A DNA stretch of 64,000 nt, from assembly GCA_963580285.1 (NCBI GenBank), contig OY757015.1, positions 130,135,688-130,199,687 of the forward strand, written 5' to 3'. A program made the position numbers and the translations under genes. Source of the stretch: Lucinisca nassula. Taxonomy: Eukaryota > Mollusca > Bivalvia > Lucinida > Lucinidae. Positions 6,718 to 54,628 of the stretch are shown piece after piece (position 1 is the stretch's first letter; each line of letters starts with the position of its first letter). The notes beneath the pieces are model-generated. The model had not been told where the DNA came from. It saw nothing but the letters and a program-made list of their open reading frames with translations, and did not search any database.

Positions 6718-6946
6718 GTGAATGGAAGTGTAACGGATGTGCAGACTGGTCTTGCGTACACTGTGTGTCGTCAGGTCAGACATAGCCTGCACTTGTCGTC
6801 ATTGTCACAGTGATGATTCAGACTATAGTCATTATAATATTTGGTTACAAAGAAATCAATGATGGCTGCTACATGTACTACTTAATTAACTGTTCTCATA
6901 CAACAACCTTCGCGCAATTATTGTTTCTTCATGATTTTTTTAATAT

Positions 6947-7440
6947 GTTGTGCGCACAAGACATTATCTTGTTCGGACAACATATTATCTTGCGCGCACA
7001 AGAAAAAATATTGTGCGCACAAGATATTATCTTGTCCGCACAAGATAACATCTTGTCCGCACAACATAGATCTTGTGCGGAAAAGATGCGCACAAGATAT
7101 TATCTTTTGCGGACAAAATATTATCTTGTTATCACATCTTAATATCTTGTGCGCACAAGATAATATCTTGACCGCACAAGATAATATCTAGTGCGAACAA
7201 GATAATATCTTTCCCGCACAAGATAATAGCTTGTTCGCACAACTTCCCAAGATCCCTGTTGTGCAAACAAGATAATATTATGTGCGCACAAGATATTAAG
7301 TTGTGCGAACAAGATATTATCTTGTGCGCACAAGATAATTATGTTGTCCGCACAACATATTATCTTGTGCGCACAAGATAATATCTTGTTCGCACAATTT
7401 AATATCTTGTTCGCACAACATATTAAAAAAAATCTTGTCC
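6947..7440. repeat. Palindromic minisatellite, about 22-bp unit
   Basis: More than twenty units of the type TTGTGCGCACAAGATAATAT C. Each unit is itself palindromic (TTGTGCGCACAA). The array is flanked by inverted TTTTTTTAATATGTTGTGCG (6933 and 7434 ends), so the whole block can fold back. Stop-free readings here on both strands are artefacts of the repeat. Confidence 0.88.
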
Positions 7441-36433: not shown

Positions 36434-37539
36434 TTATGTCTCCCCCGAAAAAATTTTTTTCGGAGAGACATATTGTTTTTCCCCCGGGCGTCTGTCTGTC
36501 TGTCTGTCCGTCTGTCCGTCTGTCACACTTTCGTGTCCGCTCTGTAACTTGAAAACCGTTAGAGCTATCTTCACAAAACTTCGTATAAATATTAATCAGC
36601 ATTAGACGACGTGCAGTGCGCAAGAACCATAACTCTCGCATTTATACTTTTTGAATTATCTCCCTTGGAAGTTTGTTGGTATGTATATATGTATGGGCAA
36701 ATCCTGTCCGGTCAATAACTTTCTTATTTTTTGATGGATTTTAAAATTACTCGGCAGAAATATTAACAACCATAAGACGATGTGTGGTGCGCATGAGGCA
36801 GGTCGGTACCTCAAAGGTCAAGGTCATACTTAGAGGTCAAAGGTCAAAAAAGGGGCCTTTTTTCGTATTTGGTCAATAACTTTCTTATTTTGAAATGGAT
36901 TTTTAAATTACTTGGCATAATTATTAACAACCATAAGATGATGTGTGGTGCACATGAGGCAGGTCGGTTCCTCAAAGGTCAAGGTCATACTTAGAGGTCA
37001 AAGGTCAAAAAGGGGCCTTTTTTTTCGTATTTGGTCAATAACTTTCTTATTTTGAGATGGATTTTGAAATCACATGGCAGAAATGTGAACCAATATAAGG
37101 CGATGTGTTGCGCGCATGACCCAAGTTGGTACCTCAAAGGTCAAGGTCATACTTAGAGGTCAAAGGTAAAAAAAGGGGCCTTTTTCGGGTTTTGTCAATA
37201 ACTTGCCTATTTTTAAATAGAATTTGAAGTTACTTGGCAAACATGTTAACTATCATGGGACGATGTGTTGCATGCATGATTCAGTTTGGTACCTAAAATG
37301 TCAAGGTCATACATAGAGGTCAAAGGTAAAAAGGGGCCTTTTTTCGTGTTTGGTCAATAACTTTTTATTTTTAGATGGATTTTGAAATTGCTAGGCAGAA
37401 ATGTTAACCACCATGAGATGATGTGTTGCACGCATGACCCAGTTTAATACCTGAAAGGTCAAGGTCATACATAGAGGTTAAAGGTAAAAAATGGCCTTTT
37501 TTGTGTTCTGTCAATAACTTTCTTATTATGCCCCCAACT

Positions 37540-39125
37540 TTGAAAAAGTTGGAGGGGCATATTGGTTCTGGTTCGTTCGTCCGTCAGTTACGCTTTTGAT
37601 GCATAGCATAACTAAAGAACCGTGTATGCTAGGGTTTTGAAATTTCATATATGGATTCCTCATGGAAAATTAGCTTACGCGTATTTTTTTTCTCGTCCGG
37701 ATTATGTCCCCTTCAAGAGTTATTGCCCTTTGAATTTTTTTAATAAAATCTTGTCAGCAAGATATCTCAAAAACTATGTGAGCTAGAGCCTTGAAAGTTG
37801 GTGAATATATTAATGGTGATGAGTAGATGAACTGATTAACTTTTGACAAAATTCCGAAAAATACTTTGTGAGTTATGGCCCTTTGTCATTATGGTAATTT
37901 GTGCCCATTGTAATGTATGCTAAAAGTGATGCATAGCATAACTTTAGAACCGTGTATGCTAGGTTTTTGAAATTTCATATATGGATTCCTAATGGAAAAT
38001 TAGCTGACGCGTATTTTTTTTCTCGTCCGGAATATGCCCCTTTCAAGAGTTATTGTCCTTTGAAATTTTTTAATAAAATCTTGTCAGCAAGATATCTAAA
38101 AAACTATTGGAGCTAGAGCCTTGAAAGTTGGTGAATAGATTGGTGGTGATGAGTTGATGAACTGATTAACTTATGACAAAATTCCGAAAAATACTAAGTT
38201 AGTTATGGCCCTTTGTCATTTTGGTAAGTTGTGCCCATTGTAATGTATGCTAAAAGTGATGCATAGCATAACTTTAGAACCGTGTATGCTATAGTTTTGA
38301 AATTTCATATATGCATTTCTGATGGAAAATAAGCTGACGCGTATTTTTTTTCTCGTCCGGATTATGCCCCTTTTAAGAGTTATTGCCCTTTGAAATTTTT
38401 TTAATAAAATCTTGTCAGCAAGATATCTCAAAAACTATTGGAGCTAGAGGCTTGAATGTTGGTGAATATATTGGTGGTGATGAGTAGATGAACTGATTAA
38501 CTTTTGACAAAATTTCTGAAAAATACTTTGTGAGTTATGGCCCTTTGTCATTTTGGTAATTTGTGCCCATTGTAATGTATGCTAAAAGTGATGCATAGCA
38601 TAACTTTAGAACCGTGTATGCTAGGGTTTTGAAATTTCATATATGGATTCCTCATGAAAAATTAGCTGACGCGTATTTTTTTTCTCGTCCGGATTATGCC
38701 CCTTTCAAGAGTTATTGCCCTTTGAAATTTTTTTAAAAAAATCTTGTCAGCAAAATATCTCAAACACTATTGGAGCTAGACCCTTGAAAGTTGTTGAGTA
38801 TATTGGTGGTGATGAGTATATGAACTTATTAACTTTTGACAAAATTCCGAAAAATACTTTGCGAGTTATGGCCCTTTGTCATTTTGGTAATTTGTGCCCA
38901 TTGTAATGAATGCTAAAAGTGATGCATTGCAGAGCATTAGAACTGTGTATGCTATGGTTTTGAAATTTCATATATGCATTCCTAATGGAAAATAAGCTGA
39001 CGCGTATTTTTTTTCTCATCCAGATTATGCCCCTTTCAAGAGTTATTGCCCTTTGAATTTTTTTTTTATAAAATCTTGACAGCAAGATATCTCAAAAACT
39101 ATTGGAGCTAGAGGCTTGAAAGTTG
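37540..39125 (+). repeat. 331-bp tandem array nested in the 160-bp array
   Basis: Units begin GATGCATAGCATAACTTTAG AACC at 37598, 37928, 38258, 38590 and 38921 (periods 330-332). They include ACGCGTATTTTTTTTCTCGT CC and GAGTTATGGCCCTTTGTCAT. The opening hairpin is CCCCCAACTTTGAAAAAGTT GG. Long stop-poor readings here repeat with the unit and are not genes. Confidence 0.85.
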
Positions 39126-39292
39126 GACCATGAGTCATGTGCAAGACCAAGGTCCATACCTCCAATGTCAAGGTCATACCTAGAGGTCAAAGGTAAAAAA
39201 AAGGACAGTCAATAACTTCCGTATTCTTTGATGGATTATGAAATTACTTGGCAGAAATGTTAACCATCATGAGACGATGTGTTGTACCGCAA

Positions 39293-50713: not shown

Positions 50714-50814
50714 CTAAACATAATGATAATCATTTGTCAATAAATCATTGAGAAGAATAATAATCAAACATGAGTTCCTTTAAGAGCAATGAAAACATTC
50801 ATAAGAAAGAAGAT

Positions 50815-50860
50815 GGGTCATACTACGTAGTTTCGGCTAATAAAGCCTCATCAGTGACCC
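50815..50860 (-). ncRNA. Hammerhead ribozyme, complete core, intronic and sense to host gene
   Basis: Reading the minus strand from 50860, every hammerhead part is present. Stem I is GGGTCA (50860-50855) paired with TGACCC (50820-50815). The core CTGATGA is at 50854-50848. Stem II is GGCT/AGCC (50847-50844 with 50838-50835) closed by a TTATT loop. GAAA is at 50834-50831. Stem III is ACT/AGT (50831-50829 with 50824-50822) with an ACGT loop. The scissile position is A50821, after GT. All stems are fully Watson-Crick. A type I hammerhead with a 3-bp stem III is the form known from metazoan retrozymes and some Penelope-like elements. It lies inside the intron between exons 1 and 2. Activity is inferred from the conserved core and has not been shown. 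Confidence 0.88.
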
Positions 50861-51213
50861 TGTAATGATCCGGCAAAGAAAGCCAGAGAAAACATACTGC
50901 AATTTTGCGAATTTCGAATAGGCAGTCGATTCAAAGACTGATATAAATCAAAATGGGGTCCAAACAATTAAAAACCTGTCTAGAATATGAGTCTAAACCA
51001 ATAATTTATTTCCGATTTCTCAGAATATTCACGCTGACTGTCTTTCGAACAAAAAGTAGTTCCACTGATATGTACACATTTCTAAACTAGACATTGATTG
51101 GCAGATTGAGACCGCGATTTAACCGTTATAGAATCTGAAGTTTGAGACAAAGACATCTTTTATGACCATGCAAAGGGATATTCTTGTACCGGAGGTGAGA
51201 AAACGGAAAATAG

Positions 51214-51272
51214 AGATGAAATCGATACAACTCCCAAAAACCCCCATCAGAGACACCAATGGGAAAGAAACA
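51214..51272 (-). mobile_element. PLE 3'-terminal scrap
   Basis: Minus-strand 3' end (GTTTCTTTCCCATTGGTGTC to TGTATCGATTTCATC), truncated exactly where a partial PAL-A starts at 51273. It lies in the intron between exons 1 and 2, about 350 nt upstream of the hammerhead on the same strand. Confidence 0.65.
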
Positions 51273-51425
51273 GCATCACGAAAGCATACCTATATAATTT
51301 TGACCCCTTTGAACCCCACTTTTATATTGTGAAACTGGGGTTCTCGTGGGTATACCTTATTTTTCTTATTTCTGCTCTAAAATATATATTGTGGGTACTC
51401 GTTAGAACCGCCTCGATGTGGCGCT
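51273..51425 (-). mobile_element. PAL-A left half
   Basis: CATCACGAAAGCATACCTAT to ACCGCCTCGATGTGGCG. It stops at the hairpin tip, suggesting breakage there. Confidence 0.7.
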
Positions 51426-52206
51426 ATTAATTCGCTATTAACTCCTTTACCCCTGAGTTTCTGAGGTTGCCTCTAGTTTGGTGGTGCATATCTATATGCC
51501 TTTAGTTGAAGTTGTTATTAGACTGGAAATAAGTGTAAGATGGGTTTGAGCCTTTAGATTTGGAACTACACTATTTATATACGTACTTGCACCGGATTAT
51601 ATAGTTGAAAGTTTTAATGTCACCAAAATTTAAACACTTTTTCTGATGAAAATGTGTGATTTTTTTCCGCTTCCAATAAAGAATGCTGGCTCTCCTTTAA
51701 ACTACCTCAGAGCTTATATGCATTCTATGCCTGGTGTTGTACTAAATATTTACACTACAGAACTGGAAAATCGTATTATTTTTAACTTTGCAATATCGCA
51801 CATTTACATTGTCTAAATGGTGCAAATCCTCACAAAGTACTTAACTGATCAGGACAGCAATCTCACCAAAAAGAACAGCGGGGAGTAGCATTTACAAAGA
51901 TTGAAGTTGTATACTAGTATTCCAAAAGAAAATATGAAACTTTCTATCAAGGTGCATACAATAATGGAGACAGCAAACCCTACCTTGAGAACCCCCCCCC
52001 CCCCAACCCCACCCCAGTTTGTCACCGTGTTTCTCTGTTCCCTAAATCATGTTTTCTTCTTCCTTAGTAGTAATTAAAAAAAAAAACTCTTATAAACTGC
52101 TTTTGTGACCTTGTTCCTTATATTTACCATATTTGCTATACAATAAACTGGCATGTTCCCTGCTGAGAATCGCTTCAGCGTCCAGATCTAAATAATTCCT
52201 TCATAC

Positions 52207-52480: not shown

Positions 52481-53071
52481 AAAAAGAAGACAGGAAAAGA
52501 AGTGAAATGTTTAAAATGTGGTCTGCGTAGGGCTACAATATTGTTATTGTGCAATCAAGCTGTTTTAACAAAATATGTTCTATAAATGGTTATCCTTATG
52601 GAGCAAGGAATACAACAAAGAACTAAAACCTGTACAAGGTTTTTGATCAGAGTAGCTAGTTTATACAAACTGGACCTCATAAGAGACCCTCGAATATTTT
52701 CAAAATTTCAAAACGGTTTCAATAACAATGGCTATTCATACATGTGGATATTTTGTATAATGGTTAAAAACGATCTCATATTAAAACATTTAGTTGTGTA
52801 AGTATGCCTCTCCCTGGGTTTAGCGGGAAAATGGAGGTAAAAAGTCACCAGCTTAACGCGTTTAAAGCATAGCATAGCATATAACATGTTATAGGCATAT
52901 TGATTTTATGTATGAACCTGTTTAAATTCAATGATTTTACGTTAGAAATCAAGAAATTGTACGGAGGGCGAAACATTAATTTTTTAGCGACAGAGACCCT
53001 TTCAAGATATGCGTGTTGTTCCTTCGTTTCTGCATCTTTACAGAATGGGTATGAATGAGCTTAAATGAACC

Positions 53072-53381: not shown

Positions 53382-53449
53382 AAATGAACCCTTGATATTT
53401 TAGTCCTTAGGGACCGTTGATTCCACTGCGAAATTTCGAAAATATCTGA

Positions 53450-53495
53450 GGGTCACTGCTGCGGCCTAATTGGTCGAAACTAGCAAGTCTGACCC
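53450..53495 (+). ncRNA. Hammerhead ribozyme copy 1, core mutated
   Basis: Stem I GGGTCA/TGACCC is perfect. Stem II is GGCC/GGTC (one G-T pair) with loop TAATT. GAAA, stem III ACT/AGT with loop AGCA, and a C at the cleavage position are all intact. The core reads CTGCTGC instead of CTGATGA, changing two invariant A positions, so this copy is probably inactive although its fold is preserved. Confidence 0.8.
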
Positions 53496-53709
53496 AGAAA
53501 CAACTTGTATACTCTACAGTTTTCAGATCTGTAATGTTGGCATTGTTTTCAAGGGACTACGTTTTTAATAAAAAACATATTGAACTTCACCACAGCTGTT
53601 GTTAAGGGAATATGTGGCGGCCAACAAATGTCTCCCTGCCCTTCATCATAGTTATACTTTCTAGTCGTTTGAAATCATCGGTTCTACTGGGTTCTTTGAA
53701 AACATCTGA

Positions 53710-53755
53710 GGGTCACTGATGAGGCCTTATTGGCCGAAAGTGCCTAATATGGCCC
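53710..53755 (+). ncRNA. Hammerhead ribozyme copy 2, core intact, stem III weakened
   Basis: The core CTGATGA (53716-53722) and GAAA (53736-53739) are intact. Stem II GGCC/GGCC is perfect around TTATT. Stem I GGGTCA/TGGCCC has one wobble pair. Stem III is AGT/AAT, with a G-A mismatch in the middle pair, and the cleavage position is A53749. It could retain weak activity. Confidence 0.8.
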
Positions 53756-53973
53756 AGAAACAATTTGCACACTTTACAGTTTTCAGTCTGTTCTGTAGTC
53801 ATTGCTTTCAAATGACCATACTTTTACAGAACATATTAAACTTTACTCCAGCGGATGTTAAGGGAATGTGATGTGGCCGTCAAATGTCCCCCTGCCCTCC
53901 ATCATTGTGAGGATTATTTTGCTCTAGTCCTTTGAAGTCACTGGTTCCCCTGCGGAATATTGCAAATATCTGA

Positions 53974-54019
53974 TGGTCACTAATGAGGTCTAATTGGCCG
54001 AAACTAGCTAGACTTGCCT
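53974..54019 (+). ncRNA. Hammerhead ribozyme copy 3, decayed
   Basis: The core reads CTAATGA, losing the invariant G of CTGATGA. Stem II GGTC/GGCC and GAAA remain. Stem III ends AGA, so the A-U closing pair is lost, and stem I has a mismatch. It is recognisable only by alignment with the other two copies and is probably inactive. Confidence 0.72.
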
Positions 54020-54628
54020 AGAAATTACGTGTAAACTCTACAGTTTTCAGTTCTGTTCTGCAGTCCTTACTTCCAAAGAATCACTCTTTTCTGAACATAA
54101 ATTGATTTCAATAAGCAACTCAAGGAAACTCTCATCTTTACAGACTGTCTAAACATTTACAGGATGTCTTTAGGTTTAAACGCAAACTTCAAAGGCTGGC
54201 TTAAACTTTGGAGACATTCTACAAAAGTAGCCTTTTAAGGATTTGATAAAACGTTCTTCCCTCATACTAGATAATACAGTAAAGGCAATGATCAGGAATC
54301 GATACATATAAACTCACACCTCCCATTCAAAACACCTAAGGGAAAGCAAAAACAAACATAAAACAACGTTATCATAATAAAATTGTCGCAAGCGGAGAGC
54401 CAAAAGGTCAGTTACTTTCCAAGAAAATGGTCAAACGGCAATGCAAATTAAAATGATATAAGTACTACATACAGTGCAAAGACAAAGTAAAGTAATAATA
54501 AATCACAATAGGAAAACCGCCACGGAACGGTCAATAAAAAGTTTTACTGGTATAGCGGGTGGGGCACTAATCAGTGCAACAGCTCCGAGAACATAGAAAT
54601 CAAACGAATACAGATATGAAAGAACGAT

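Follow-up and report, generated by a model that had tools for sequence, protein, structure and literature searches.

The question raised by this locus is whether a hammerhead motif at 50815-50860, inside an intron of an SRCR gene in a 64,000-nucleotide stretch of the genome of the bivalve Lucinisca nassula (assembly GCA_963580285.1, contig OY757015.1, positions 130,135,688 to 130,199,687; hereafter the window), belongs to that gene or to something inserted in it. Comparison with other copies in the same genome indicates that the motif is the ribozyme of a metazoan non-long-terminal-repeat (non-LTR) retrozyme copy inserted in the SRCR intron and spread by reverse transcription of an RNA circle, a reading to which we give a probability of about 0.85. 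The features concerned are the following:

50714 to 52206, minus strand: intron splitting the SRCR domain and containing the insert (the splice join gives an open frame, with SRCR halves on both sides)
50756 to 51037, minus strand: retrozyme insert, 0.74 of a 383-bp unit, running from unit position 167 to 383 and then 1 to 65 as numbered from the ribozyme cut (97.2% identity to the L023 unit; differing from the family consensus at 5 of 282 positions)
50815 to 50860, minus strand: hammerhead ribozyme of type I, with the cut predicted to fall between 50821 and 50820 (core bases and covariance model)

The two SRCR halves flank the motif (PF00530 positions 1-43 and 56-100), and joining AG/GTATGA (52207/52206) to TTTAG/A (50714/50713) yields a single open SRCR frame, which bears out an earlier sequence-only reading that had placed the hammerhead within the SRCR intron and in sense with the gene. 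The cut, which it had put between 50821 and 50820 and 107 nt from the splice acceptor, was placed correctly, and the insert ends 42 nt from the same acceptor.

Read on the minus strand from 50860 to 50815, the hammerhead is GGGTCA CTGATGA GGCT TTATT AGCC GAAA CTACGTAG TA^TGACCC, with all core bases in place (CUGAUGA, GAAA, A-U at the base of stem III and H = A at the cut). It is of type I because stem I is the open stem, and the conserved catalytic core and three helices of that type are present; stem II has 4 bp and stem III is short, with C-G, U-A plus A-U only and a loop of 4 nt, so that of the three fully paired stems claimed all exist and the third is weaker than described. The bare pattern CTGATGAN{4,30}GAAAC matches the window once and is not rare by chance, at least one match being obtained in 25 of 100 shuffles. 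No Rfam hammerhead family matched the window at its gathering score, which is a threshold of the library and not the definition of a hammerhead, Hammerhead_3 scoring 20.3 bits (E 0.6) against a gathering score of 48.5. A covariance model made from 30 copies located elsewhere in this genome and zero window sequences (alignment of 87 rows, from which 20 not 46 bases long were dropped and 30 of the remaining 67 used) gave, on the other hand, 74.5 bits (E 1e-18) and, together with the full core, confirms a complete hammerhead. Stem partners pair in 93.3% of the cells of this alignment versus 16-45% when partners are slid, and one pair of stem II varies between C-G (15 rows) and U-A (10 rows), a swap that mostly splits the two families described below and consequently represents few events. 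The predicted hammerhead fold of the 46-mer reaches -11.7 kcal/mol versus a minimum of -12.5 (the competing fold being better by 0.8 kcal/mol), and in a 682-nt context the stem III pairs have a predicted probability of about 0.11. Mismatches amount to 2.4% inside the hammerhead versus 2.8% elsewhere in the copies; since the copies were chosen by core pattern, conservation of the core is not claimed as selection.

The insert surrounding the hammerhead is 282 bp long, with bounds taken from alignment to copies in the same genome. Over 2.93 Gb in 696 contigs, the core pattern CTGATGAN{4,20}GAAAC was matched 44,413 + 43,766 = 88,179 times and its reversed form 4,185 + 4,256 = 8,441 times, an excess of 79,738 for the forward pattern, and two sub-families, judged by eye, account for most of the places listed. 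Sampled sister copies stand in unrelated sequence, two of them inside a Ty3-like pol gene. Copies of the 383-bp family hold 0.4-2.3 units and those of a second family, of 261 bp, up to 6.8. The window contains two stretches of the latter:

53395 to 54099, plus strand: array of 2.7 units of the 261-bp family, diverging by about 20% from its consensus and carrying three hammerheads at 53450-53495, 53710-53755 and 53974-54019 (repeat alignment and covariance model)
52571 to 52726, minus strand: decayed copy, 0.63 of a unit long, belonging to the 261-bp family and retaining a hammerhead relic at 52644-52689 (repeat alignment and covariance model)

With the genome-derived model these scored 64.6 bits (53710-53755), 59.4 bits (53450-53495), 44.9 bits (53974-54019) and, for the relic, 11 bits (E 0.98). 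The array shows 139 mismatches in 693 bases against the 261-bp consensus, and the 261-bp family is older than the 383-bp family. Metazoan non-LTR retrozymes are repeats of about 150-450 bp with a type I hammerhead, arranged as dimers to multimers and with a GC content below 50%; the 383- and 261-bp units lie in this range, the 383-bp consensus has 37.9% GC, and both families fit the class as judged on ribozyme type, unit size and multimers, the 383-bp family on GC as well. The 3' sequences of the copies are GGAACTCATTTTTGATTTTTATTT and TATAGAACATATTTA. The sequence CTGATGAAGCTGAAAC at C1:1612120 (L049) was set aside as being, by eye, another tandem repeat with no hammerhead, and at L030:2318-2727 pieces of the 261-bp family lie in opposed orientation around one another.

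The manner of spread was read from the copy ends, using for the 383-bp family 24 copies, namely 23 from 20 loci on contig C1 and the window copy, with the unit numbered from the cut. The 3' end falls at unit position 64-69 in 21 of the 24 and at 71, 85 and 210 in the remaining three, the end at 85 being probably an over-extended alignment because a separate comparison stops at 65. In the 261-bp family, the 3' end is at 85-92 in 22 of 37 rows, and the 5' ends are scattered in both families. Expressed as the concentration R, the 3' ends give 0.93 (24 copies, 383-bp) and 0.90 (31 of the 37 rows, 261-bp), and the 5' ends 0.19 (p 0.43) and 0.20 (p 0.31) respectively; the six 261-bp rows left out were judged broken pieces, with 3' ends at 227 (L009:2084), 216 (L013:1754), 215 (L030:145), 224 (L030:2318), 60 (L030:2643) and 244 (L036:2363). 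As this shared 3' end falls on the far side of the ribozyme cut, the copied RNA must have been continuous across the cut. Eight filled/empty site comparisons, drawn from many empty-site candidates, were aligned and include five clean insertions and three ragged cases (L018 twice, L026). The clean insertions show shared T-rich bases at the 3' junction. Target-site duplications, which in retrozymes exceed 4 bp when present, were represented by one of 6-7 bp among the five clean pairs, and a loose repeat scan found up to 9 bp, in L019. A two-unit retrozyme at L009:2393-3200, about 95 kb into contig C1, has its 3' end at the unusual unit position 210, adjoins about six CCCTAA repeats and was possibly primed on a telomere-like end.

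RNA continuous across the cut could be a circle or a linear multimeric transcript, in which latter case the ribozyme cut would be irrelevant to insertion. A fixed start beyond the cut requires uncut RNA only, and uncut RNA is the main in vitro template of a lizard Penelope-like element (PMC11167929). Against a linear template stand private variants common to the laps of one copy, as if one circle had been reread. Laps overlap in 12 of the 24 copies of the 383-bp family, and laps of one copy have 51 non-consensus states in common in 2,392 bases versus 142 in 142,276 between copies, about 20 times as many; without the copy at L022, the lap figure is 39 in 2,093. Differences number 49 in 2,392 bases between laps versus 8,306 in 142,276 between copies, and in the 261-bp family L048 carries 217T>G in 7 of 7 laps. 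The comparison of copies suggests that the repeat spreads via circular RNA, and we regard linear templates as an unlikely source of the copies, although one to be taken seriously.

The copy at L022 (L022:1895-2572) bears on the same point. A>G accounts for 25 of its 34 mismatches versus 27 of 254 in the other 23 copies (Fisher p 1.4e-14), and for 9 of 66 changes between its flanks and the empty-site locus. In the order of reverse transcription, the first 41 A's are intact and 25 of the following 127 read G, with a p of 0.0007 that is generous because the boundary was picked after the data were seen. This boundary falls near position 270 of the unit in the first full lap, and in the stretch read twice the six sites 212, 250, 256, 260, 262 and 265 are changed in both laps, which also argues against a linear template. 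Three variants unique to L022 among the 24 copies (35C>T, 282C>A and a gap at 284-285) occur on both sides of the boundary, which points either to a single source whose editing set in partway or to a move onto a sister that was edited. Molluscs are reported to have ADAR genes and editing of viral RNA (PMC6651903), and we tentatively raise the possibility that the L022 circle was deaminated by the host (A-to-I, ADAR-like) during its reverse transcription, so that the copies would record a trip round one circular RNA. A template switch onto an edited sister RNA, after a first stretch read from an unedited one, accounts for the same data, and an ADAR preference is not clear from the 5' neighbours of the changed A's in L022 (7 T, 6 G, 4 C, 2 A).

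Several observations weigh against copying from circles. The 383-bp copies come from the first 3 Mb of one contig, where they were chosen by an exact match to the core pattern, and 15 of the 37 rows of the 261-bp family end outside 85-92. L020 alone supplies 15 of the 51 lap-shared states, and a linear multimer transcribed from a homogenised array crosses the cut too and could carry lap-shared variants. Several 261-bp copies share 0-2 variants between laps (L014, L015, L032 and L034 include lap pairs with zero shared variants), which neither supports nor excludes a circle. Lastly, a mobilising enzyme was not found, and the Penelope-like families examined do not fit.

A plain tandem satellite, whose units multiply through unequal crossovers and excision at the DNA level and never pass through an RNA circle, would agree with arrays of up to 6.8 units, and its homogenisation could likewise yield variants common to laps. 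Fixed 3' ends with scattered 5' ends, single part-lap copies with empty sites and, in one copy, the A-to-G excess on the RNA-sense strand are not what such a satellite predicts, and we consider it very improbable.

If copying from circles is correct, transcripts of multi-unit copies would cut themselves at the hammerheads, as demonstrated for the mussel by others, and the ends of the unit RNA would be joined across the cut into a circle. A reverse transcriptase provided by another element would then start at a fixed position, 64-69 nt (383-bp family) or 85-92 nt (261-bp family) beyond the cut, the junctions suggesting priming at a nicked target through short T-rich matches. The enzyme would go round the circle for a partial lap or several laps and could stop anywhere, in the window copy after 0.74 lap.

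The search for such an enzyme centred on Penelope-like elements, a label based for L058 on its GIY-YIG and reverse transcriptase domains and for the others on GIY-YIG matches. The genome gave 138 GIY-YIG matches (150 of 746 candidates scored), some of them arranged in tandem and within open frames 763-820 aa long. In 24 stretches (19 3' flanks and parts of L052, L058, L060, L061 and L062) the retrozyme tail was matched once, in L058, about 60 bp past the end of its own element; the 19 3' flanks contain no retrozyme sequence. L056 may carry a retrozyme tail, as L058 at first appeared to do. The L058 tail was rejected since its tandem neighbour L060 puts the L058 end about 60 bp earlier, and the L058 piece is therefore a neighbouring truncated retrozyme. 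The Penelope-like ends run into (TA)n in 15 of 15 inspected, four flanks (L070-L073) stopping short of an end, and (TA)n was seen at 0 of 24 retrozyme junctions. A Penelope-like partner acting through a common 3' tail or target preference was consequently dropped for the families examined. In one Penelope-like family (L060, L062, L064-L069) there are two stop points, separated by 41 bp and both leading into (TA)n, which resemble the optional 'tail' known from other Penelope-like elements.

The sequence-only reading had considered an intronic hammerhead in a molluscan SRCR-YWTD gene to be new as far as it knew. Type I hammerheads are already on record from a mollusc, the mussel Mytilus galloprovincialis, with about 5,000 of them (Cervera and de la Pena 2020, PMC7229834). 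Self-cleavage, at about 0.1 per minute in vitro, and RNA circles have been demonstrated for the mussel retrozyme, and that paper proposes circles as templates with Penelope-like enzymes as likely helpers (PMC7229834). The present case differs in its roughly 80,000 excess core matches and its second family of 261 bp, and both families are known from genomic sequence alone, whereas RNA circles were seen in the mussel. Axolotl retrozymes are alike in being very many (126,247 motifs), in forming two families and in their weak stem III, but belong to a vertebrate, have 330- and 350-bp units and ribozymes that work better as dimers (PMC7229834). In a Penelope-like element of Anolis carolinensis, the hammerhead cuts at +26 and reverse transcription starts at +111 to +118, a distance of 85-92 nt from the cut (PMC11167929), which equals the end position of the 261-bp family and differs from that of the 383-bp family (64-69). 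This element encodes its own enzyme, and the Penelope-like copies examined in the present genome run into (TA)n and have no sequence in common with the retrozymes. Among open-licence papers, judged by title and opening of the abstract, no report of fixed retrozyme 3' ends or of edited genomic retrozymes was found, which is weak evidence of absence.

As to the gene, severing of the SRCR pre-mRNA by the window copy is possible, and such cutting would probably be slow because stem III is weak. With one ribozyme on 0.74 of a unit, and two cuts needed for a circle, the window copy by itself should not yield circular RNA. A regulatory ribozyme of the SRCR gene, kept by selection to sever its pre-mRNA and change exon inclusion, would suit the full core, the sense orientation and the cut 107 nt ahead of the acceptor, yet it is scarcely credible and was rejected as the principal explanation because the motif belongs to a young, dispersed mobile insert, found elsewhere as the same 282 bp, and has a weak stem III.

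Other repeats of the window comprise 22 copies of a 21-bp unit at 6941-7422, arrayed around the near-palindrome CTTGTGCGCACAAG, and an array of a 330-bp unit at 37597-39126 (4.6 copies, 92% matches) adjoined by an array of a 160-bp unit at 36710-37527.

The route by which animal retrozymes pass from RNA circle to DNA is an open question, on which the available part of PMC7229834 gives no evidence from insertion ends. The circle model becomes testable in any genome by sequence alone, through the fixed 3' and scattered 5' ends and the variants shared between laps, and the fixed 3' ends tell where the enzyme starts. If the deamination proposed for L022 is true, retrozyme copies would be fossil time-stamps of host attack on the circular template, and further copies like L022, should they exist, would reveal the action of a host enzyme on the RNA template.
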